Assembly (NCBI RefSeq): GCF_004801255.1
Contig: NZ_CP036295.1
Span: 1,438,001 to 1,502,000, forward strand
DNA length: 64,000 bases
From: Desulfovibrio desulfuricans
Lineage (GTDB): Bacteria > Desulfobacterota > Desulfovibrionia > Desulfovibrionales > Desulfovibrionaceae
Reading direction: 5' to 3'
The notes under the pieces are model-generated. The model had not been told where the DNA came from. It searched no databases and was given only the letters and a program-made list of their open reading frames with translations. The translations under genes and the position numbers were made by a program. Below are positions 3,878 through 13,742 of this stretch, in pieces (the stretch's first letter is position 1; each line of letters opens with the position of its first letter).

Positions 3878-4133
3878 GCAGGTCCTGCCGTGCTGGCGGG
3901 TAGTGAGTGATGTTTGCCTCCGGGCTGTCTGTAAAAACAGAGGCAACTACGGGGCTCCCCCTTGTTGCCTGTCGCTACGGGCAGGCAAGGCCGCCCATAC
4001 GCAGGGCGGAATTGTTGTGATATATCCAATGCTGCCAGCCGCCGCAAGGCTCGGGCTGGCCCGCTGTTTCAGGCTTGACGCCCCTGCTGGCGGTCCGTAA
4101 CATTTTGACAATTCTATGTTGTATGGAGAACGC

Positions 4134-5912
4134 ATGACCCTTGATCCTACCAAGCACCCGGACTGGCAGATTGCCCTGGATGCGGAAAAGAATATGAAAA
4201 CCTTTGAGGCCCTCACAGCGGAGATGGGCCTGAAGCCTTCAGAAGTTCTGCCCTACGGGCGATATATGGGCAAGATTGAGCAGCAGGAAGTGCTGAACCG
4301 GCTCGAAAACCGCCCCAACGGTAAATATGTTGACGTTACGGCCATTACGCCCACGCCGCTTGGCGAGGGCAAGTCAACCACCACCATTGGTCTGGTGCAG
4401 GGCCTTGCCCGGCGCGGCCTGCGGTCTTCGGCGGCCATACGGCAACCCTCGGGCGGCCCCACCATGGGCATGAAGGGCTCCGCCGCTGGCGGCGGTCTTT
4501 CGCAGTGCATCCCGCTGACGCCGTATTCCCTCAATTTTACGGGCGACATACATGCAGTCGGCGCAGCGCACAACCTCGCCATGACGGCCCTGACGGCCCG
4601 TATGCAGCACGAGCGCAACTACGACGACGCCACGCTTGAGCGGCTCTCGGGCATGCGCCGGCTGGATATCGACCCCACGCGCGTGAGCACCGGCTGGGTG
4701 ATGGATTTTTGCACCCAGGCGCTGCGCAACGTCGTCATCGGCATGGAAGGCGACGGCAGGCGCAACGACGGTTTTATGATGCGCTCGCATTTTGACATCA
4801 CCGTGGCTTCCGAGGTCATGTCCATTCTTTCGGTCGCGCGTGATCTGGCCGACCTGCGTCAGCGCATGGGCCGCATGGTTCTGGCCCTTGACCGCAACGG
4901 CAGGCCCGTGACCACTGCTGACCTTGAGGTGGACGGGGCCATGACCGCCTGGCTTGTCGAGGCCATCAAGCCCAACCTTATCCAGACCATCGAGGGCCAG
5001 CCCGTGTTGGTGCATACAGGCCCCTTCGGCAACATCGCCCTGGGCCAGAGCTCGGTTATCGCCGACAGGGTGGGCCTCAAGCTGGGCGACATCCATGTGA
5101 CGGAATCCGGCTTTGCCGCCGAAATGGGCTACGAAAAATTCTGGAACCTCAAGTGCCGTTACAGCGGGCTTGCGCCCGATGCGGCGGTGATTGTGGCCAC
5201 CGTGCGCGCCCTCAAGCACCACGGCGGCGCGCCGCAACCGCGCCCCGGCCAGCCCCTGCCCGAGGAATACCTGCGTGAAGACGTGGGCCTGGTGGAGGCC
5301 GGGTGCGTCAACCTGCTGCACCATATCGGCATTGTGCGCCGCTCCGGAGTGCCCTCGGTTGTGTGCATCAACAAGTTTTATACCGACAAACCCGCAGAGA
5401 TTGCCGCTATCCGCCGTATCTGCGAAAAAGCCGGGGCCAGCGTGGCTGTGTCGGAACATTGGGAAAAAGGCGGCGAAGGCGCGCTGGAGCTGGCGGACGC
5501 CGTTATGGACGCCTGCAATTCGTCCAGGCGCGGCTTTCGCCCGCTCTATGACTGGAAGCTGCCCCTTGCGGAACGCATTGTCTGCATTGCCCGCGAGGTC
5601 TACGGCGCGGACGGGGTCGATTTTGAACCCATGGCTGCCCAGCGGCTCAAGAGCCTGCAGGAGCGGCCAGACGCGGACGAGCTTGGCGTATGCATGGTCA
5701 AAACCCAGTACTCGCTTTCGGACGACGCCAAGCGCAGGGGCGTGCCGTCGTCGTGGCGGCTGCACGTGCGCGATGTGCTGCTGTTTGGCGGCGCTGGGCT
5801 TGTGGCCCCGGTGGCGGGCGATATCAGCCTTATGCCGGGTACGGGTTCCAAGCCCTCGTTCCGCAATATCGATGTGGATGTGACAACCGGGCGGGTCACC
5901 GGCCTGTTCTAA
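4134..5912 (+). CDS. fhs: Formate-tetrahydrofolate ligase
   Basis: The enzyme joins formate to tetrahydrofolate at the expense of ATP, giving 10-formyl-THF for one-carbon metabolism. The 592-residue protein has the family ATP-binding loop TPLGEGKSTTTIG near residues 73-85, the RQPSGGPTMGMKG segment, and the expected length. The ATG at 4134 has GGAGA five bases upstream; an in-frame ATG at 4116 lacks a ribosome-binding site. The gene is monocistronic, flanked by the divergent lpdD-like gene and by a long perfect hairpin downstream. In sulfate reducers it connects formate to serine and methyl-THF; metH in this same window would use the methyl group. Confidence 0.95.
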   Translation: MTLDPTKHPDWQIALDAEKNMKTFEALTAEMGLKPSEVLPYGRYMGKIEQQEVLNRLENRPNGKYVDVTAITPTPLGEGKSTTTIGLVQGLARRGLRSSAAIRQPSGGPTMGMKGSAAGGGLSQCIPLTPYSLNFTGDIHAVGAAHNLAMTALTARMQHERNYDDATLERLSGMRRLDIDPTRVSTGWVMDFCTQALRNVVIGMEGDGRRNDGFMMRSHFDITVASEVMSILSVARDLADLRQRMGRMVLALDRNGRPVTTADLEVDGAMTAWLVEAIKPNLIQTIEGQPVLVHTGPFGNIALGQSSVIADRVGLKLGDIHVTESGFAAEMGYEKFWNLKCRYSGLAPDAAVIVATVRALKHHGGAPQPRPGQPLPEEYLREDVGLVEAGCVNLLHHIGIVRRSGVPSVVCINKFYTDKPAEIAAIRRICEKAGASVAVSEHWEKGGEGALELADAVMDACNSSRRGFRPLYDWKLPLAERIVCIAREVYGADGVDFEPMAAQRLKSLQERPDADELGVCMVKTQYSLSDDAKRRGVPSSWRLHVRDVLLFGGAGLVAPVAGDISLMPGTGSKPSFRNIDVDVTTGRVTGLF

Positions 5913-5937: not shown

Positions 5938-5988
5938 ATCTATACCCGCGTTATCCGGCCTGCTTTACCGGATAACGCGGGTATAGAT
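5938..5988 (+). terminator. Perfect 21-bp hairpin after fhs
   Basis: Arms 5938-5958 and 5968-5988 are exact inverted complements with a 9-nt loop. It sits 26 bases after the fhs stop, which suggests transcription termination or 3'-end protection. Only a short T run follows directly, but a T7 stretch comes about 15 bases later, so a classic intrinsic terminator is likely but not certain. Confidence 0.65.
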
Positions 5989-6156
5989 TTCCATAAGTAA
6001 AATTTTTTTAAAAAAAGGATTTTTGAGTAATATACATTATTTATAGGGGATTGTAATACTTGGTTTCAGATAACCTGAATTCATCTCTTGAAAAAAGCCA
6101 CAAATTCAATACTATTAATAAAATAATTCCGCTGTATAGAGCCATTGGGAGGCCCC
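5989..6156 (+). promoter_or_regulatory. AT-rich leader before the signalling block
   Basis: This stretch is strikingly richer in A and T than everything around it, with T7 and A7 runs near 6002-6016 and several TATA-like hexamers. It ends in a strong ribosome-binding site, GGGAGG at 6147-6152, five bases before the ATG at 6157. No single promoter stands out, but the composition marks it as the control region of the 6157-12897 gene set. Confidence 0.5.
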
Positions 6157-8211
6157 ATGGAAGTTGTGCTCAGAGGCGTGCGCGGCAGCATAGCCACGCC
6201 AGCTCCAGCCATGTCTTTTTACGGTGGCAACACCTCATGTGTTGAACTGCACACCGACAGCGGGGCGCTTGTTTTTTTTGATGCGGGTACAGGCTTGCGC
6301 GAGGCAGGCGAAAACCTGCCGCCAAGCGGAACCTGCCATCTTTTTATTTCGCACGGGCATACCGACCATATCCAGGGGCTGGGCTTTTTTCGTCCCTTGC
6401 ATTCGTCCCGCTGGACCACCCACATCTATATCCCCGCCTGGCTCGAAAACGTGCTGGACAACCACTTTGCCCACGGCATGTTCCCCATCGCCTTCAGCGA
6501 CTTTGCCGGAACAGTGGTGCGGCACTGCCTTGAACCAGGGGATGCGGTAACCATTGACGCAGCCACCACCATCACGGCCATAGAGGCAAATCATCCCGGC
6601 GGCGCGCTGGCGTACAAGGCATGCGGCGAAGGCGCAGTTTTTTTGTATAGCGGCGACTACGAGATTACCCGCGACGACAAGGTGCGGCAGGCCACGCGCG
6701 CAATGCTTGAAAATGTTGATCTGGCCGTTGTGGACAGCATGTACAGCACGTCCAGCTATATCGAGGGATGGGGGCACTCCCGCTGGGAGGACTGGCGCGA
6801 TCTTGGCCTTGAGGCGGGGGCTGGCTGCGTTGTCCTTTCGCACCATTCGCCCCAAATGACCGACAGGCAGATAGACGTGCTGCAGCGCGAGGCTCTGCAG
6901 AGTTGCCGTCTAAACGGCCTGCGCCTGTGTTTTGCGCGCGAAGGCATGCGCTTTGACCTGCCCATGGGCAAAGACCGCACCTGCAACGAATGCTCTCTTG
7001 TGCAGTTCAGCGACTGGCTTGACAAATTTGTTGACGCCCTGTCGCAATACCAGGATGAAAATACGCTGCTGGACCGCATACTTGCCAAATCGCGCGAAAT
7101 CACCAACGCCGACGCCGGTACTATTTTTCTTGTGGACGGCGAAGACCTGCTCTTTGCCTACACTCACAACGACAGCCTGTTTTCTGTCAACACCGCTTCA
7201 AAGTTCGCCTATTCATCGGCACGGCTGCCGATCAACACCCAGTCCATTGCCGGCTATGCCGCCTGCACAGGCGAGCTGCTCAACCTTGCCGATGTACGGG
7301 CGCTGCCGTCTGGTCTGCCGTTTTCGTTCCGCGATGATTTTGACAAGGCTACGGGCTACCGCACCGAATCAATGCTGGTGGTTCCGTTTCATGATCACGC
7401 TGGCCGCGTCTCGGGCGTCATGCAGCTCATCAACAGTCTTGACCCGCGCACGTGCAGGCCGCGCAGGTTTACGCACGATATGGAAGGGCATATACGGGTG
7501 CTCGCGCGCGAGATCGCAAACGTCCTCGAGCGCAGCCACCTTGTGCGGGCGAGCATCAACAGGCTTATCCGTCTTGCTTCGGTGCACGACCCGCTGGAAA
7601 CCGGCCCCCATGCCGAACGCGTAGGGGCCATCGCCGCAGAAATGTATCAGGTCAGGGCCAATCAGCTGAATCTCGACCCGGACGTAACCCTGCACGTAAA
7701 AAGCCAGATACGCCTTGCCGCCATGCTGCACGACATTGGCAAGGTGGGCGTGAGCGACCTGCTGCTGAAAAAGCCGGGCAAGCTCACCGACGAAGAAATG
7801 TCCGCCATGCGGGCGCATACCATGATCGGGGCTGGCATACTTGCGGCAGAAGCCCAGGGTGGTGGTTTTATGGCTTTTGCCCGCGACATTGCCCGCCACC
7901 ATCACCAGAAATGGAACGGCCAGGGCTATGCCGGTCCCAGCGACGTGGGCAGGCTGTCTGGCGAGGATATCCCCATTGCGGCCCGCATCACGGCCATTGC
8001 AGATGTTTTTGATGCGCTGGTTTCGCCCCGCTCGTACAAGGCCGCCTGGCCCCACTCAAAAGCTCTGGCGCTGATGCGCGAGGAGGCGGGCAAGCATTTT
8101 GACCCCAACCTGGTGGCCTGCCTTGAAGAAGTAATGGATGTCGTGGCCAAAATTTATGAGCGCTTTCCCGATGCTGATCCGGTGCAGGTCAGCCGCGATG
8201 CCGCCTCATGA
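6157..8211 (+). CDS. MBL-fold hydrolase / GAF / HD-GYP signalling protein
   Basis: The 684-residue protein joins three domains. Residues 1 to about 270 form a metallo-beta-lactamase fold of the cyclic-phosphodiesterase/RNase-Z-like type, with an RGSIATP...YGGNTSC start and the metal motif HGHTDH at 66-71. A GAF-like domain follows at about 300-465. An HD-GYP domain occupies about 475-660: the metal pair LHDIGK is at about 523-528, but the second signature reads HHHQKWNGQGYAG (about 581-593) instead of HHE..DG.GYP. HD-GYP proteins usually hydrolyse c-di-GMP or cGAMP; the altered signature leaves activity open. No signal peptide or membrane segment is seen, so it should be cytoplasmic. Its stop overlaps the cyclase start (ATGA), so the two are coupled. 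Confidence 0.85.
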   Translation: MEVVLRGVRGSIATPAPAMSFYGGNTSCVELHTDSGALVFFDAGTGLREAGENLPPSGTCHLFISHGHTDHIQGLGFFRPLHSSRWTTHIYIPAWLENVLDNHFAHGMFPIAFSDFAGTVVRHCLEPGDAVTIDAATTITAIEANHPGGALAYKACGEGAVFLYSGDYEITRDDKVRQATRAMLENVDLAVVDSMYSTSSYIEGWGHSRWEDWRDLGLEAGAGCVVLSHHSPQMTDRQIDVLQREALQSCRLNGLRLCFAREGMRFDLPMGKDRTCNECSLVQFSDWLDKFVDALSQYQDENTLLDRILAKSREITNADAGTIFLVDGEDLLFAYTHNDSLFSVNTASKFAYSSARLPINTQSIAGYAACTGELLNLADVRALPSGLPFSFRDDFDKATGYRTESMLVVPFHDHAGRVSGVMQLINSLDPRTCRPRRFTHDMEGHIRVLAREIANVLERSHLVRASINRLIRLASVHDPLETGPHAERVGAIAAEMYQVRANQLNLDPDVTLHVKSQIRLAAMLHDIGKVGVSDLLLKKPGKLTDEEMSAMRAHTMIGAGILAAEAQGGGFMAFARDIARHHHQKWNGQGYAGPSDVGRLSGEDIPIAARITAIADVFDALVSPRSYKAAWPHSKALALMREEAGKHFDPNLVACLEEVMDVVAKIYERFPDADPVQVSRDAAS

Positions 8212-10406
8212 GCATAGGGTCCGCCCTGAAGCGGCTGCTGCGGCAGCCATGGCTTTTTACCGCCATGGCGGGACTGTGCGGGGGCGTGGTCATGCTGGCG
8301 CTGTATGTGGCGCAGCCTGTGGCGTTGCAGCGCCTTGACCTGAAAATTTATGACGCATTGCTGCCCCTGCGCAAGCTGAGCCAGCCATCGGCTGTACCTG
8401 TTATTATCGACATCGACGAGCAATCATTGGCCCGCTACGGCCAGTGGCCCTGGCCGCGTTACCTGGTGGCCGATCTTGTGGACAGGCTGAGACAAAGCGG
8501 CGTTGCCTCCATCGGGCTGGATATCATGTTCGCCGAGCCGGACAGAACATCGCCCGCGCGCATGCAGCAGGATATTTACCGCAACAGGGGCATATCGCTT
8601 GAAATTGCTGGCCTGCCTGCGTCGCTGGCAGACTTTGACGCGCTTTTTGCCGCATCGCTGCGCGCCGCGCCAGTGGTGCTGGGCGCATTTGCACGCTACA
8701 CCGGCGAGCCCGGCGGCGGCCCTCAACCCCGCCCTCCGGCCATGATCGCGCGCGGCGGCAAGGATGCCCCCCCGTATGACCAGTTTTTGCCCCTCGCTTC
8801 AGGCGCGGTTTTACCGCTGCCGCAGTTTTTTGAACAAGCCCCGGTGGGATTTGTAAATGTTTCACCCGATGTCGACGGGCTGGTGCGGCAGATTCCGCTG
8901 CTGATCAGATTTGGCGATGCCGTTTACCCTTCGCTGGCCCTGCAGGCGCTCATGCGGGCGCTGGGTACGGACTCCCTCAGGCTGTACACCGGGCCGGACG
9001 GGCTGTTCAGCCTTGCGGCCGGCAGTTTCAAGATTCCTGTATCGCGCGAGGGGTATATGCAGGTTCCCTTTCAGGGGGCGCGGCATACGTACAGGTACAT
9101 CAGTGCCGCCAGGGTGCTGGAGGGCACAGCCGACAAGACCGACCTTGGGGGCTGCATAGCCTTTGTGGGCACGTCGGCCCCCGGTCTGGCCGATATACGG
9201 GCCACGCCGTTTGACAGGGTAATGCCGGGCGTGGAGGTGCACGCTGCCGCCATTGACGCCATGGTCAACGGCAACTTTGTGCAGACGCCCGCGTGGGCCC
9301 CCGGCGCGCAGATGCTCATGATAGCCATTGCGACCTGTGCCGCAACACTGGCTTTTGGCTTTGCCGGGCCGAGGGTGTATGTGCCCGCCGCCGTCGCCCT
9401 TATGGGGGCGACAGTGCTTGCGTCGCGGCAGCTGTTTATGACGGGGCTGTTTCTTTCACCCCTGTATGGCCTGCTAACCTCGCTGCTGTGCGGCGGCCTG
9501 CTGCTGAGCGTGCGCTTTTGGCACGAAGAAAAGCAGAAACTTGTGCTGCGGCGGGCTTTTTCGCGCTATGTGTCGCCCGAGGTGGTCAGGCAGATCAGCA
9601 AGAGGCAGGGGGATTTGCTGGCGGGCGAAAACCGTGAGCTTTCCATCCTGTTTACGGACATCCGGGGATTCACCAGCCTGTCGGAGTCGCTTTCGCCCCA
9701 GAATGTGGTGCAGCTGCTGAACCGGTACTTTACGCCCATGACGGCCATTGTGCGCAACCGTTGCGGCACGTTGGACAAATTCATCGGCGATGCGCTCATG
9801 GCCTTTTGGAACGCGCCTCTTGATGTGCCCGGGCACGCCGCGCTGGCGGTGGATGCGGCCCTGAGCATGCAGGAGCAGCTCGAGGCCCTGAATGCGGAAA
9901 TTGAGGAGAGTTTTGGCATACGGCTGGCCATGGGGGCGGGTATCCATACGGGGCAGGCCTATGTAGGCAACATGGGCTCGGACGATCTGATCAATTACAC
10001 GCTTATCGGCGACAGCGTTAATCTTGCTTCGCGTCTTGAGGGCCTGTGCAAGCGCTACGGCGTACCTGTGGTTGTCAGCGAGGATACAATGAAGGGCTGT
10101 GGGGAGACTTTTGCCTTTGTTCATCTTGATTTGCTGAGGGTCAAGGGTAAAACTCGGCCTGTAAGCATCTACTGGCCCATGCGGCCGGGTATGGATGAAA
10201 TTTTTCAGCAGGCCATGCCGCAGTGGACAGCCGCCCGCACATGCTACGAGAGGGGCGCGTTTGCCGAGGCAGCGGCGGAGTTTGCCGCTCTGGCGGCGCG
10301 GTACTCCGGTGTGCGGCTGTTTGAGCTGTACTGCGAGCGATCACGCATGCTCGCGCAATCGCCGCCCCCGGCATGGGACGGCATCTGGACCATGGAAGAT
10401 AAGTAG
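8208..10406 (+). CDS. CHASE2-domain class III adenylate cyclase
   Basis: The 732-residue membrane protein has an N-terminal membrane segment (about 15-35), an extracytoplasmic CHASE2 domain (about 36-350, with VPVIIDIDEQSL and GLDIMFAE), a cluster of hydrophobic segments (about 355-435) and a C-terminal class III cyclase domain. Catalytic metal-binding aspartates are in FTDIRGF (482-488) and LDKFIGD (522-528); the lysine in the latter and the later INYTLIGDSVNLASRLE segment favour ATP as substrate and indicate an active enzyme. It would make cAMP in response to a periplasmic signal. The start ATG overlaps the stop of the MBL/GAF/HD-GYP gene by 4 nt, and a FecR-domain gene follows after 31 nt. 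Confidence 0.9.
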   Translation: MSIGSALKRLLRQPWLFTAMAGLCGGVVMLALYVAQPVALQRLDLKIYDALLPLRKLSQPSAVPVIIDIDEQSLARYGQWPWPRYLVADLVDRLRQSGVASIGLDIMFAEPDRTSPARMQQDIYRNRGISLEIAGLPASLADFDALFAASLRAAPVVLGAFARYTGEPGGGPQPRPPAMIARGGKDAPPYDQFLPLASGAVLPLPQFFEQAPVGFVNVSPDVDGLVRQIPLLIRFGDAVYPSLALQALMRALGTDSLRLYTGPDGLFSLAAGSFKIPVSREGYMQVPFQGARHTYRYISAARVLEGTADKTDLGGCIAFVGTSAPGLADIRATPFDRVMPGVEVHAAAIDAMVNGNFVQTPAWAPGAQMLMIAIATCAATLAFGFAGPRVYVPAAVALMGATVLASRQLFMTGLFLSPLYGLLTSLLCGGLLLSVRFWHEEKQKLVLRRAFSRYVSPEVVRQISKRQGDLLAGENRELSILFTDIRGFTSLSESLSPQNVVQLLNRYFTPMTAIVRNRCGTLDKFIGDALMAFWNAPLDVPGHAALAVDAALSMQEQLEALNAEIEESFGIRLAMGAGIHTGQAYVGNMGSDDLINYTLIGDSVNLASRLEGLCKRYGVPVVVSEDTMKGCGETFAFVHLDLLRVKGKTRPVSIYWPMRPGMDEIFQQAMPQWTAARTCYERGAFAEAAAEFAALAARYSGVRLFELYCERSRMLAQSPPPAWDGIWTMEDK

Positions 10407-10437
10407 GTCTTTTATACTGTAGAGTTGGGGGGAAATC

Positions 10438-11514
10438 ATGATTCGATACACGTTTGGGCATGGCGCGCTGGCCCTGTGCCTTATCTTGTTGACTGGCACC
10501 ATGTGCGCGGCCAAGGATGTGGGACAGGTCATTTCCTACAAGGCGGGTGTTACCGCCCAGCGGGAAGGGCAACCTGTTGCGCTGGGCATGAAAAGCCCTG
10601 TGGGCGACAGGGATGTGCTGTCCACCGATGCCACAGGCCGGGCGCAAATTCTCTTTGACGACGATACCACGGTTGCTCTTGGCTCCAACACGTCGCTCAG
10701 TCTTGAGACCGTTGTGGCCGAAGGCCCCAACCCCGCCTTCAAGGCCAAACTGGGTGAAGGCGTGGCCCGTTTTATAACGGGCAAGATTGTTGAAAAGAAC
10801 CCTGATGGTTTTTCTGTGGTAACGCCAGACGCAACCGTGGGTATTCGCGGCACTATTTTTTCTGTCAAAGTGAGCGACGGAACCACAATAGTTTATGTGA
10901 CCAACACAACCAAACAGGTCTTTGTCAACGGGGTGCTGGTTCCTTCCGGCTTCAAGATGTCCCTGCCGCAGGGGGCGGTAAGCCCCATGACGCCAGCTGA
11001 TACCAATACCATTATGGGCAGCGTGGCAACTCGCAGTTCTGCCCCTGGCAGCCCGGCGCCCCTTGCGCCGCCCTCCACCGCGTCGGTCGGCGTAACTGCG
11101 CCCACATCGTTGGCGCAGGCGCCGCTTGTGGCGCAGGCGCAGACCAACCAGCAGGGATTTGGAATAGATACGTTCCGGCATCTCAATAATGCCGTTGTTT
11201 CAGGAGTGCTGCAGAACAGTGATCACCTGGATGCAGGTACGTTCAACTTTCACGTCAATCTTGCAAGTGGTATCGTCAGCAACGGAATGATGAAGCCGGA
11301 TGGTCTGGGCACGCTTACTGGAGGCAATGGATCAATTTCCGGATCTTCCCTGAGCGTGACCAATTTTACGAACCACAACTATAGCGGCAGCATGACTGGT
11401 ACTGCGGCAACCAGCAGCGGTATATTATCCGTGAACGGCAATTATACAATTTTAGATCGCTCTGATCTGTCAGAAGTCAGATCTGCTCAATTTTACGGAA
11501 GCCAGCACAATTAG
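10438..11514 (+). CDS. Secreted FecR-domain protein with C-terminal beta-rich domain
   Basis: The 358-residue protein begins with a signal peptide (about 1-24, no good lipobox). Residues about 25-180 are a FecR domain: GQVISYKAGVTAQREGQ, ALGSNTSLSLE, and TPDATVGIRGTIFSV. An Ala/Pro/Ser-rich linker (about 195-235) leads to a Gly/Ser/Thr-rich tail (about 255-358) with alternating polar and hydrophobic residues, such as GTLTGGNGSISGSSLSV, GSMTGTA and a final QFYGSQHN. That pattern resembles the small beta-barrel lobe of TbpB/hemophilin-type proteins exported by Slam; this is inference. A GGGGG-type ribosome-binding site precedes the ATG. It lies 12 nt before the TPR/barrel gene and presumably forms an operon with it and the cyclase. 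Confidence 0.8.
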   Translation: MIRYTFGHGALALCLILLTGTMCAAKDVGQVISYKAGVTAQREGQPVALGMKSPVGDRDVLSTDATGRAQILFDDDTTVALGSNTSLSLETVVAEGPNPAFKAKLGEGVARFITGKIVEKNPDGFSVVTPDATVGIRGTIFSVKVSDGTTIVYVTNTTKQVFVNGVLVPSGFKMSLPQGAVSPMTPADTNTIMGSVATRSSAPGSPAPLAPPSTASVGVTAPTSLAQAPLVAQAQTNQQGFGIDTFRHLNNAVVSGVLQNSDHLDAGTFNFHVNLASGIVSNGMMKPDGLGTLTGGNGSISGSSLSVTNFTNHNYSGSMTGTAATSSGILSVNGNYTILDRSDLSEVRSAQFYGSQHN

Positions 11515-11526
11515 GGGAACTGAGGC

Positions 11527-12897
11527 ATGAAATTTTGCGTCTCAATCAACCCCGCTGTGCAGTTTTTTGCTTTGCTGCCCCTTCTCTTGCTGTTGGGCTG
11601 CTCATCAGCCATGGCGGCGGAGGATTCGCCCGCTCTGCGTACGGCTGTTGGCTCTGCCAAGGCCGACGCTGCAGCGCTCATGCAACAGGGCAAGTACGCG
11701 TCGGCCTACGAAATGTATATGCGCCTGCTGCGCGAAACCCCGGATGATGACGAAGTCAACCTTAACCTTGCCCGCACCTCCATGCATACAGGGCGTTACA
11801 ACCAGGCTGTGATGGCCTATGAGCGGCTTACGGAAAAATATCCCAGCGAACCTGTGCTCTTTGGCGAGCTGGCCCAGGCCTACATGGCGCTTGAAGACCG
11901 CCGGAGCGCGGAAAGCGCCATGGCTACAGCGCTCGCCCTTAACCCCAATATCAACAAGGCCGACAGCGACAGGTTGCTCGACTCGCTCGAAAAGCGCTAC
12001 GAGCACTGGCAGATACACGGCAAGGTGCGCAGCGGTCTGCTGTACGATTCAAACGCCACCTTTGGCCCTGCAAGTACGAGCATGGATCTTGGTTCATGGC
12101 GCATTGACGTGCCGGATTCCGGGGCTAAAAGCACATTTGGCGCGTATCTTGGCAGTAATCTTGATGTCGCCTGGAAGGCCGAGCGCGACACCCCCTGGTG
12201 GGTCGTGGGCGATGTGCAGGGGCTTGCGCGCGGCAACGGCAATGCCTCGCTAGACAACGTGCACAGCCGCACTTCGGAGTGGGGCAGGGCCGCAGCGGGC
12301 TTTCGCCATCTTACGCCCACAACCATGCTGGACGTGCGGTTTAAAAGCGAGGTTTTTGACTACCAGTGGTACCAAAACGTCTCTGCCTCCGGCACGGAAG
12401 CTACCTGGCTGTGGGCTGTAACCCCCGCGTGGCACCTGATTACGCGCGGAACCCTTGATTCGCGCGCCTATTCAAGAGACGGCGACCGTAACGGTGCGTA
12501 CTGGACGCTGGGGCAGTACGTGCGCCGCTATTTTGGCGAGAGCAACCACGAGATAATGCTGGGTGTGAGCTACCTTGGCGGCAATACGCCTGAGAAGGCC
12601 GACTATTGCTATACCGGCATTGAAACCAGCGCTCGGGTGGTCTTTAAGCTGCCCAAGGATTTTGAGTTGTCGCCCTTCGTTTCTTTTGAAAAAGACTGGT
12701 ATAACGGCCCGGCCACCGCGCTGGAAACCTCAAACCGCCTTGACCAGAAGTGGCGCACAGGCGCTGCGCTCACATGGCGCGTTACCGAGGCCTGGTCTGT
12801 GGAAACGTCGTACCAGTACACGCACAACGCCTCTGAAAGCGCGATCTACAGGTTTGACCAGTCGCTGGTTTCACTTGGGGTTGCCTGGTCATTTTAG
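11527..12897 (+). CDS. TPR plus outer-membrane beta-barrel protein, Slam/DUF560-like
   Basis: The 456-residue protein has a signal sequence that could be cleaved at LLGC (lipobox, Cys about 25) or after AMA (about 31). TPR repeats span about 45-155 (ALMQQGKYASAYEMYMRLL, NLARTSMHTGRYNQAVMAYERL). From about 160 to the end it is a beta-barrel: alternating aromatic strands, the phrase GLLYDSNATFGP, and a terminal phenylalanine as in BAM substrates. TPR followed by a barrel of about 300 residues is the layout of surface lipoprotein assembly modulators (Slam), which move proteins with small barrel domains across the outer membrane. Its adjacency to the FecR protein suggests that protein is the client. 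A Slam role is inferred from architecture and motif only. Confidence 0.75.
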   Translation: MKFCVSINPAVQFFALLPLLLLLGCSSAMAAEDSPALRTAVGSAKADAAALMQQGKYASAYEMYMRLLRETPDDDEVNLNLARTSMHTGRYNQAVMAYERLTEKYPSEPVLFGELAQAYMALEDRRSAESAMATALALNPNINKADSDRLLDSLEKRYEHWQIHGKVRSGLLYDSNATFGPASTSMDLGSWRIDVPDSGAKSTFGAYLGSNLDVAWKAERDTPWWVVGDVQGLARGNGNASLDNVHSRTSEWGRAAAGFRHLTPTTMLDVRFKSEVFDYQWYQNVSASGTEATWLWAVTPAWHLITRGTLDSRAYSRDGDRNGAYWTLGQYVRRYFGESNHEIMLGVSYLGGNTPEKADYCYTGIETSARVVFKLPKDFELSPFVSFEKDWYNGPATALETSNRLDQKWRTGAALTWRVTEAWSVETSYQYTHNASESAIYRFDQSLVSLGVAWSF

Positions 12898-13310
12898 CCC
12901 GGCATATGACGCGCGCCAGCGAGCCTTGATGATCGCAGCGCGGCGGGCTGTCTGTGCGTCTGCCCTGGTAAGGGGCGGGCGCACTTTTTTTGCGAATAAC
13001 GCACTGCTTTTTTGCACAGTAAAAAATGGCAGTGCCACAAGCCGGATAGGTTTGGCTGGCAACCGCCAAACCAGCATTAAGGGGCTACAAAGCTATCAGG
13101 GTGAACAATAGAGAGGACGTCCCGGCAATTGCCGTCGTATGGCTATTGCGACGCAATAAACAGGCCCCACCGGCAGATATATGGGCAGGCGGGCAAAAAA
13201 TGTCAAAACCGGTCAGTTTTGTCTGCAATGTGCAGAAAAACTGACCGGTTTTTGGTTACGCAGAAATGTTACGGATTGGTAAGTCAAAAAACCGTCTGCG
13301 CGTGCCAGAC
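12898..13310. other. Gap without a gene, holding a bidirectional terminator
   Basis: Between the barrel gene (plus) and the ACT gene (minus). Apart from the hairpin at 13205-13252, I see no open frame with a ribosome-binding site and no RNA gene. The left part (12900-13130) has no recognisable content. Confidence 0.5.
13205..13252. terminator. Bidirectional terminator
   Basis: Arms 13205-13220 and 13237-13252 pair exactly, and the inner arms 13222-13227 and 13231-13236 extend the stem with one bulged base. A runs at one end and T runs at the other make it usable from both sides, fitting its place between convergent genes. Confidence 0.85.
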
Positions 13311-13742
13311 TTAGCGGGCGCAAAGGCGCTCGGCCGGAATGATGACAAAGTTGTTGGCTTTGAGCACTTCAATGGCCTGATCGATCTTGTCGAAGCGAAA
13401 GATCATAACGGCGCTTTCGGCTTCGCGCTGCACAAAGGCGTACATGTATTCCACGTTGATGCCGTTTTTTGAAACGGTTTGCAGCACAGAATCAAGACCG
13501 CCGGGAGTGTCGGGAACCTCCACAGCCACCACCGTTGTGCGGCCAAGGGTGAAGCCTTTATCTTTCAGCACGACCTTGGCTTTTTCATGATCGCACACAA
13601 TCATGCGCAGGATGCCAAAGTCAGAGGTGTCGGCCAGCGACAGAGCGCGTATATTGATGCCTGCCTCGGCCAGGGTGTGCGTAACCTCGGCCAGACGTCC
13701 GGCCCGGTTTTCCAGAAATACAGAGAGCTGTTCCGTTTTCAT
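13311..13742 (-). CDS. Tandem ACT-domain protein
   Basis: The 143-residue protein is two ACT domains in a row (about 1-70 and 72-140). The first starts [21 protein letters not shown] and the second has [12 protein letters not shown], both typical ligand-binding ACT turns. ACT pairs without a catalytic domain usually bind amino acids and regulate or sense them; the ligand cannot be told here. The start ATG has AAGGAT upstream. It lies 29 nt after tatA and probably shares its transcript, ending at the bidirectional hairpin. Confidence 0.85.

Follow-up and report, generated by a model that had tools for sequence, protein, structure and literature searches.

How might an adenylate cyclase of the inner membrane be informed of what occurs at the cell surface? 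This question is raised by four consecutive plus-strand genes of Desulfovibrio desulfuricans, which lie in a stretch of 64,000 nucleotides (assembly GCF_004801255.1, contig NZ_CP036295.1, positions 1,438,001 to 1,502,000; hereafter the window, in whose numbering Table 1 is given). They encode a protein with metallo-β-lactamase (MBL), GAF and HD domains, a CHASE2 class III adenylate cyclase, an exported FecR-domain protein and an outer-membrane protein combining tetratricopeptide repeats (TPR) with a β-barrel. A first-pass annotation, made from the letters alone, had recognized this arrangement and its tight junctions. The open reading frames (ORFs) and their 4-nt overlap, 31-nt gap and 12-nt gap were confirmed, as were the domains with Pfam: Lactamase_B_2, GAF and HD_5 in the first protein, CHASE2 and Guanylate_cyc in the second, FecR in the third, and TPR with a sub-threshold SlipAM match in the fourth.

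We consider it fairly probable that the four genes form a trans-envelope cyclic AMP (cAMP) signalling module, a split counterpart of the NsrA-CyaK pair of S. meliloti. The set is a variant of known CHASE2-cyclase envelope systems. What appears new, from predicted structures, is the Slam/type XI architecture of the barrel protein and the NHBA-like, eight-stranded C-terminus of its FecR partner. Through this likeness to a recently described protein-export system, the outer-membrane pair offers a possible route by which an outside signal could reach the cell interior.

Conservation of the gene set

Among 79 genomes of the genus, full-length cyclase genes occur in 17 and full-length MBL-GAF-HD genes in 18. 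The barrel gene is present in 17, one of these copies being a fragment of 47 residues at the edge of its contig. Loci duplicated under two labels (for example L059 and G013, L060 and G018, L072 and G005) are left out of these counts. Sixteen genomes have both cyclase and barrel (Fisher p 1e-14) and 17 have both cyclase and MBL protein (p 2e-16), with kinship ignored in both values. In the stretches around the 16 non-fragment barrel genes, a cyclase is found in 15, an MBL gene in 14 and a FecR gene beside the barrel in 13. The order MBL, cyclase, FecR, barrel is shared by seven genomes, including that of the window, while four others (G044, G053, G074 and G092) have FecR, barrel, cyclase, MBL. 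In G042 an MBL-cyclase pair faces a FecR-barrel pair; in G005 and G015 the barrel faces MBL-cyclase and FecR lies on other contigs; G068 has the MBL protein only. Since the gene orders are reshuffled, the linkage is more than inherited synteny. The search for the set in relatives, proposed with the first-pass annotation, thus shows it to be conserved beyond chance in the genus.

The linkage extends further. At E 1e-10 the barrel profile has matches in 32 of 297 genomes of the order. The succession MBL, barrel, FecR, cyclase is found in a Sulfuricurvum and in a Campylobacterales metagenome-assembled genome (MAG). A Sulfurimonas MAG has barrel, FecR, cyclase with the MBL gene on the opposite strand, and Catenovulum maritimum has barrel, FecR, MBL, cyclase and a GAF/HD gene. 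In a PVC MAG (L082), barrel and FecR genes are followed by a CHASE2 hybrid histidine kinase in the place of the cyclase; the output is therefore exchangeable. The cyclase has matches in 380 plasmid records, of which four were inspected. In those of S. meliloti, Shinella and Ruegeria FecR stands immediately beside the CHASE2 cyclase, and in that of Ensifer a single small TPR gene separates the two. Shinella p1 carries TPR/barrel, FecR and CHASE2 cyclase genes in a row. Its TPR/barrel protein aligns with that of the window over 363 columns (hhalign 96%), and its FecR protein reaches 19.4 for FHBP_C, below the cut-off of 28.1. On the Ensifer and Shinella plasmids (L206, L207) the FecR and CHASE2-cyclase genes lie alongside NHLP bacteriocin export genes and a cyclic-nucleotide-binding gene.

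FecR and CHASE2 genes are close neighbours well beyond the genus. Among the 150 best-listed places of each in 297 genomes there are 168 pairs that share a genome, and in 28 of these the two genes are no more than 6 kb apart, where 0.6 would be expected from random placement in genomes assumed to be of 3.3 Mb, kinship being ignored; 25 of the 28 are outside the genus. We also scanned the neighbours of CHASE2 in 40 loci, one per family of the phylum (L139 and L158-L196, some on short contigs). FecR is the commonest Pfam family among both the immediate (5 of 72) and the second (6 of 68) neighbours. These lists lack 19 places, mostly at contig ends, omit a FecR neighbour of more than 1500 residues in L183, and hold for L172 two entries that are not true neighbours, an antisense ORF having been picked over the cyclase. 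Other families recurring among the 72 immediate neighbours are OmpA, PP2C and cyclic-nucleotide-binding proteins (four each) and MlaE (three). FecR is the hub of these arrangements: it adjoins CHASE2 with or without the barrel, and the barrel with or without the cyclase. CHASE2 is kept where a kinase replaces the cyclase, both in L082 and in the BiofilmReg operon (PMC5192318), which points to the sensor domain, and not the enzyme, as the partner with which FecR goes.

The envelope proteins and the proposed relay

The cyclase residues D484, K524, D528, T598, N605 and R609 are invariant in all 16 aligned rows, from Desulfovibrio to Campylobacterota. We take these to be the class III adenylate cyclase residues, D484 and D528 being the metal aspartates and K524 and T598 the adenine-selecting pair, and the window protein has the full complement. 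By hydropathy CHASE2 is flanked by a single N-terminal hydrophobic segment and, on its other side, by a further cluster. The protein ends (10374-10403) in the tail WDGIWTMEDK; tails of this kind close most of the 16 rows, and Lys is the last residue in every one. The genome of the window encodes one CHASE2 protein, one FecR protein, a sole class III cyclase (the cyclase search being for class III only) and six cyclic-nucleotide-binding proteins, which could be the receivers of cAMP.

The FecR protein (PF04773, 52.7 bits) has a single N-terminal hydrophobic stretch and, by hydropathy, no membrane helix beyond this signal peptide. FecR anti-sigma factors are defined by PF04773 together with a cytoplasmic anti-sigma part and one membrane helix, a layout which the window protein does not have. 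Its AlphaFold model (mean pLDDT 82) consists of a FecR fold, a poorly modelled linker at about residues 199-248 and eight C-terminal strands. The best fold match of residues 56-199 is the cell-surface signalling domain of PupR (Z 15.8). Residues 21-90 or so (10498-10707) match, by sequence (E 6.5e-6) and by fold, the cell surface anchoring domain 5ix9 of an "antifreeze protein", which we take to be an ice adhesin. This likeness hints that FecR-like folds also act as periplasmic retention parts. Compared by sequence with solved structures, the FecR alignment gave, apart from 5ix9, two weak matches (E 0.13 and 0.6), and neither NHBA nor fHbp.

For the C-terminal domain (residues 248-358) the best solved fold match is NHBA (Z 11.8 over 102 residues, root-mean-square deviation 2.6, 22% identity), and other cargo proteins of Slam match as well: fHbp and HphA (both Z 10.6), HpuA (9.6) and the C-lobe of TbpB (9.3). 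No TbpB or fHbp domain was found by Pfam (E 1) in 26 FecR proteins. A profile of this domain, trained within the genus, matches all nine complete FecR proteins that neighbour the close barrel family and were not used in training (L061, L062, L064-L067, L070, L071 and L079; weakly in L079 and L070). At E 0.01 it matches none of the distant FecR proteins of L082, L085, L086, L088, L090, L180, L189, L193 and L195, whose tails, judged by eye, are barrel-like in L082, L085, L088 and L189 and not in the other five. Three loci show variations on the pair. In L064 (1-3389) two FecR genes flank one barrel gene, the first being cut by the contig end. The 1551-residue FecR neighbour in L070 (566-5221) has several profile matches along its length. 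In L073 (182-1084) a 300-residue Ser/Gly/Pro-rich ORF upstream of the barrel has a cargo-type C-terminus and no FecR match.

The fourth protein has one hydrophobic stretch, its N-terminal signal peptide. In its model (mean pLDDT 83) helices at residues 35-153 precede 14 long strands within residues 161-455, with a short hairpin at 185-194. The barrel is closest in fold to CymA (Z 21.8) and OmpG (Z 21.6), both of which are 14-stranded. Slam proteins are built of an N-terminal periplasmic TPR domain and a 14-strand barrel (PMC5449769), and the modelled window protein has this Slam/type XI architecture.

In the module that we propose, built on the gene set with its domains, catalytic residues, conservation and modelled folds, the TPR/barrel protein would be seated in the outer membrane. 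The FecR protein would enter the periplasm by means of its signal peptide and dock on it. Its cargo-type C-terminal barrel would probably be inserted into or through the outer-membrane protein, leaving the N-terminal FecR domain in the periplasm. The state of this pair, whether a ligand is bound outside or export is occupied, would alter the FecR domain. The CHASE2 domain, on the periplasmic side of the inner-membrane cyclase, would read that change and so set the level of cAMP available to CRP-type regulators. The cytoplasmic MBL-GAF-HD protein would degrade cAMP, with its GAF domain as its own nucleotide sensor. We infer the contact between FecR and CHASE2, the direction of the signal, the behaviour of the C-terminal domain as cargo, the ligand and the substrate of the phosphodiesterase. 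That CHASE2 reads the FecR/barrel pair, as the first-pass annotation had it, is in keeping with the phylum-wide linkage, the kinase exchange in L082 and the S. meliloti precedent.

The weakest step of the mechanism is export of the FecR protein. Complete export would break the relay, because the FecR domain cannot be surface-exposed and touch CHASE2 at the same time. One tentative version makes the exporter and its cargo themselves the sensor: the C-terminal barrel would pass through or plug the Slam-like protein with the FecR domain kept in the periplasm, and cargo that is held, released or bound outside would be reported by FecR to CHASE2 and so to cAMP. If this were true, CHASE2 receptors would have their long-sought input in FecR proteins generally. 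It seems unlikely to us that the barrel is instead a working type XI exporter which displays the entire FecR protein at the cell surface, to serve as adhesin or binding protein, the cyclase and phosphodiesterase controlling its production with cAMP upstream of the pair. Such a role would suit the cargo-type fold found by profile in the nine complete FecR neighbours, the adjacency of FecR and barrel without a cyclase in several loci, the barrel with two FecR neighbours and the 1551-residue FecR protein. It leaves unexplained, however, the linkage of FecR to CHASE2 where no barrel was found (FecR ORFs of 148-156 residues; L160, L181, L186, L194), the exchange of cyclase and histidine kinase behind CHASE2 and the genetics of NsrA-CyaK (PMC7529298).

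Counter-evidence, the predicted phosphodiesterase and the borders of the locus

Several results weigh against the cAMP module, and they concern the outer-membrane pair, the constancy of the linkage and the phosphodiesterase. In the Pfam scans the window barrel remains below the cut-offs both for SlipAM (PF04575; 18.4, or 19.1 in another scan, against 22) and for TPR_Slam (32.3 against 35.2). SlipAM has no match at E 0.01 in the distant barrel relatives of L088 and L189, and the other five of these seven relatives pass its cut-off (L085 34.1, L082 30.5, L086 27.8, L180 43.8, L090 32.4). We therefore call the window protein Slam-like and do not file it as a member. Foldseek placed the cellulose channel BcsC and OmpG first; that no Slam structure is among the matches listed does not speak against a likeness to Slam. 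Nor is the fold of the FecR C-terminus exclusive to cargo: a Legionella porin (9nh2; Z 10.8, 7% identity) ranks second, above fHbp, and OmpW and avidins reach Z 9.8. NHBA leads by about one Z unit and by identity, and the cargo-type fold is suggestive but, because of the porin in second place, not decisive. The Campylobacterota FecR partners of L086 and L090, both of 293 residues, have no C-terminal barrel evident by eye; with two of the three partners from this phylum in that state, this argues against export as a general feature.

These last observations bear on a different role for the barrel, as a receptor porin of the kind proposed for NsrA (PMC7529298, PMC13001267), which would export no protein and would signal through a FecR protein lying wholly in the periplasm, C-terminal barrel included, as a linker. 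We regard this as possible though on the doubtful side. Besides the NsrA precedent, it accommodates L086 and L090, where the outer-membrane partners of the barrel-less FecR proteins nonetheless pass the SlipAM cut-off, and the nearly equal fit of unrelated small barrels to the FecR C-terminal fold. What it leaves unexplained is the conserved cargo-type domain of the Desulfovibrionaceae.

The linkage has its exceptions too. Within the genus, G091 has a cyclase without a barrel and G076 a FecR-barrel pair without a cyclase. The barrel of G005 and of G015 has a REC-GGDEF-EAL gene, in the place of FecR, as its neighbour. Some FecR-barrel pairs (L066, L067 and L069) lack a cyclase in the surrounding 10 kb or so. 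Searched with the FecR profile, 13 of the 40 CHASE2 neighbourhoods contain FecR and 27 do not; the barrel is present in seven. Finally, a FecR-domain gene at a different S. meliloti locus, smc02177, is reported as dispensable for plant-signal perception (PMC5498481). The REC-GGDEF-EAL ORFs stand at 9785-11458 in L052, where the domains were scanned, and at 4837-6510 in L053; the gene was considered as the FecR gene of G005 and G015, rejected, and kept out of the later FecR sets.

The MBL-GAF-HD protein, which has no hydrophobic stretch by hydropathy, is predicted from its sequence to be a cyclic-nucleotide phosphodiesterase. Its MBL half keeps the HxHxDH motif and the other conserved residues (H66, H68, D70, H71, H146, D167, H207), and the HD, HH and D residues of the HD half are present (H525, D526, H582, H583, D616). 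The GYP motif of the HD half reads GYA in the window and its near relatives, and GYT or GYP in others. Solved structures related to the GAF part come from the GAF domains of phosphodiesterases and of an adenylate cyclase, and those related to the HD half are named cyclic di-GMP (c-di-GMP) and 3'3'-cyclic GMP-AMP (3'3'-cGAMP) phosphodiesterases. Of five MBL proteins scanned, three from Campylobacterota pass the cut-off of 23.7 for class II cAMP phosphodiesterase (PDEase_II) (L086 38.1, L087 41.5, L088 57.0), and a truncated one from the same phylum (L090) equals it. PDEase_II (PF02112) is matched neither by the window protein at E 0.1 nor by that of L085 at E 0.01.

The first protein might instead have c-di-GMP or cGAMP as its chief substrate, by way of its HD domain, in which case the set would couple cAMP to a second nucleotide and would not close a cAMP loop. 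The solved relatives of the HD half, and the REC-GGDEF-EAL gene beside the barrel in two relatives, point in this direction; the GYA reading and the three Campylobacterota MBL halves above the class II cAMP phosphodiesterase cut-off point away from it. We judge this a less than likely substrate assignment, and one that is compatible with the cAMP module, as both halves of the protein could be active.

The set is flanked by fhs (4116-5912) and by a convergent ACT-domain gene (13311-13742). For the first gene ATG 6157, preceded by GGGAGG, is the likeliest start; the listed TTG 6145 overlaps this ribosome site. Judging by their spacing, the four genes are probably co-transcribed. The AT-rich leader announced by the first-pass annotation is plain: positions 6000-6140 have 24% G+C against 59% for the window. 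A promoter scan of the region gave 2 sites against 4.1 expected, with no excess of sigma-70 sites. Behind the last gene a hairpin (12954-12984) has the longest stem in the terminator listing, although the scan of the region gave 10 sites against 8.5 expected in shuffles (standard deviation 3.1). The hairpin has a plus-strand T-run and no A-run ahead of the stem, and the convergent gene has a terminator-like site of its own (13310-13294), so that the terminator does not look bidirectional, as the first-pass annotation had it. The inverted repeat that follows fhs has no T-run. Its core is identical in the window and four of five aligned relatives, L013 differing by one base, and its outer arms vary across the five, mostly still paired; it may possibly mark the end of fhs. 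With junctions judged from spacing and neither scan giving an excess, one might ask whether four unrelated genes merely lie side by side. The co-occurrence statistics of genus and phylum and the reshuffled gene orders make such chance adjacency exceedingly improbable.

Table 1. Features of the four-gene set and its borders in the window.
Feature	Position	Strand	Basis
Perfect 21-bp inverted repeat, core GCGTTATCC/GGATAACGC, between fhs and first gene	5938..5988	none	
AT-rich leader, presumed promoter region	5990..6156	+	base composition
MBL-GAF-HD protein gene	6157..8211 (listed ORF start 6145)	+	ORF list, Pfam, alignment
Lactamase_B_2 (MBL-GAF-HD protein)	~6274-6846	+	Pfam
GAF (MBL-GAF-HD protein)	7057-7524	+	Pfam
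HD_5 (MBL-GAF-HD protein)	7573-8112	+	Pfam
CHASE2 class III adenylate cyclase gene	8208..10406	+	Pfam, alignment
CHASE2 domain	8292-9338	+	Pfam, 206 bits
Class III catalytic domain, Guanylate_cyc	9633-10172	+	Pfam, 84 bits
Exported FecR-domain protein gene, C-terminal eight-stranded domain	10438..11514	+	Pfam, AlphaFold model, fold comparison
FecR fold, residues 27-183	10516..10986	+	AlphaFold model, fold comparison
C-terminal eight-stranded domain, residues 248-358	11179..11511	+	AlphaFold model, fold comparison
Outer-membrane TPR/barrel protein gene, Slam/type XI-like	11527..12897	+	Pfam, AlphaFold model
TPR part of barrel protein	11629-11985	+	Pfam, model
14-stranded barrel	12007-12894	+	AlphaFold model
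13-pair hairpin (12954-12984) then seven T, terminator-like	12954..12991	+	hairpin scan

Relation to known systems

In the FecA-FecR-FecI and PupB-PupR systems a FecR fold in the periplasm, together with an outer-membrane protein, passes a signal inward. The window FecR domain resembles the PupR signalling domain in fold, as noted above. The window set, in contrast, includes no gene for a TonB receptor or sigma factor, its FecR protein has no membrane helix and its output is a cyclase.

Type XI secretion, with Slam, resembles the window set in having a TPR and 14-strand barrel protein encoded beside a protein that carries a signal peptide and a C-terminal barrel of eight strands (PMC5449769, PMC8406197, PMC9090332, PMC12282271), in the window a modelled one. 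Such a C-terminal barrel is common to predicted and known type XI cargo (PMC12282271). It differs in that the window set has a FecR-domain partner and a cyclase, neither of which is mentioned in the main texts of PMC12282271 and PMC8406197. Our literature search, which left subscription papers mostly outside, found no report combining DUF560 with FecR, nor Desulfovibrio with CHASE2 and a cyclase; Slam and adenylate cyclase were met together in a single paper, a Pasteurella screen.

The set cannot be called undescribed, as the first-pass annotation had tentatively proposed, since NsrA-CyaK is known from experiment and the four-gene cluster is in print for Campylobacterota: a cluster of CHASE2 cyclase, phosphodiesterase, FecR and TPR genes was proposed there to form one signal transduction pathway (PMC9239204, mBio 2022). 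It comprises the same four kinds of gene, and L086, L088 and L090 are of that type. The passage on the cluster labels the TPR protein simply as TPR domain-containing and places the FecR protein in the outer membrane, and the main text mentions neither Slam nor DUF560; the NHBA-like fold of the FecR C-terminus and the Desulfovibrio host set the present case apart from that account. The Burkholderia BiofilmReg operon places a LysM/FecR protein beside a CHASE2 protein whose output is a histidine kinase, the terms "cyclase" and "outer membrane" being absent from the main text (PMC5192318). At the magnetotactic mtxA locus a TPR protein gene is followed by a CHASE2 cyclase gene, FecR being absent from the main text (PMC4439547).

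An experimental precedent is that of S. meliloti, in which outer-membrane NsrA and CHASE2 cyclases produce cAMP in response to an outside protein (PMC7529298, PMC13001267). NsrA is an outer-membrane barrel protein required together with CyaK, its barrel being located at residues 600-1200 (PMC7529298). On the S. meliloti plasmid CP130050 the gene ending at cyaK encodes 1190 residues with FecR (57.6 bits), TPR and, as a weak match, an outer-membrane barrel (16.1, the cut-off being 27). Against the window barrel profile only its TPR part aligned, with a probability of 12.5%, the barrel part remaining unaligned. Its size fits that of NsrA, whose barrel extends to residue 1200 (PMC7529298), and from position and size we infer that this gene is nsrA.

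The input of CHASE2 was stated to be unknown in 2016 (PMC5192318). The phylum-wide FecR link, the exchange of kinase and cyclase and the FecR-TPR protein before cyaK together lead to a hypothesis that is cheap to test, namely that the input read by CHASE2 is a FecR domain in the periplasm, itself linked to a barrel of the outer membrane. NsrA, with CyaK, CyaD1 and CyaD2, shares with the window set an outer-membrane barrel, a CHASE2 cyclase and, as proposed for the window, a path from outside signal to cAMP (PMC7529298, PMC13001267, PMC10463352). The window genes have the corresponding layout, an outer-membrane barrel with FecR and TPR parts beside a CHASE2 cyclase; in the gene before cyaK these parts are apparently joined on one chain, whereas in the window they are separate chains.

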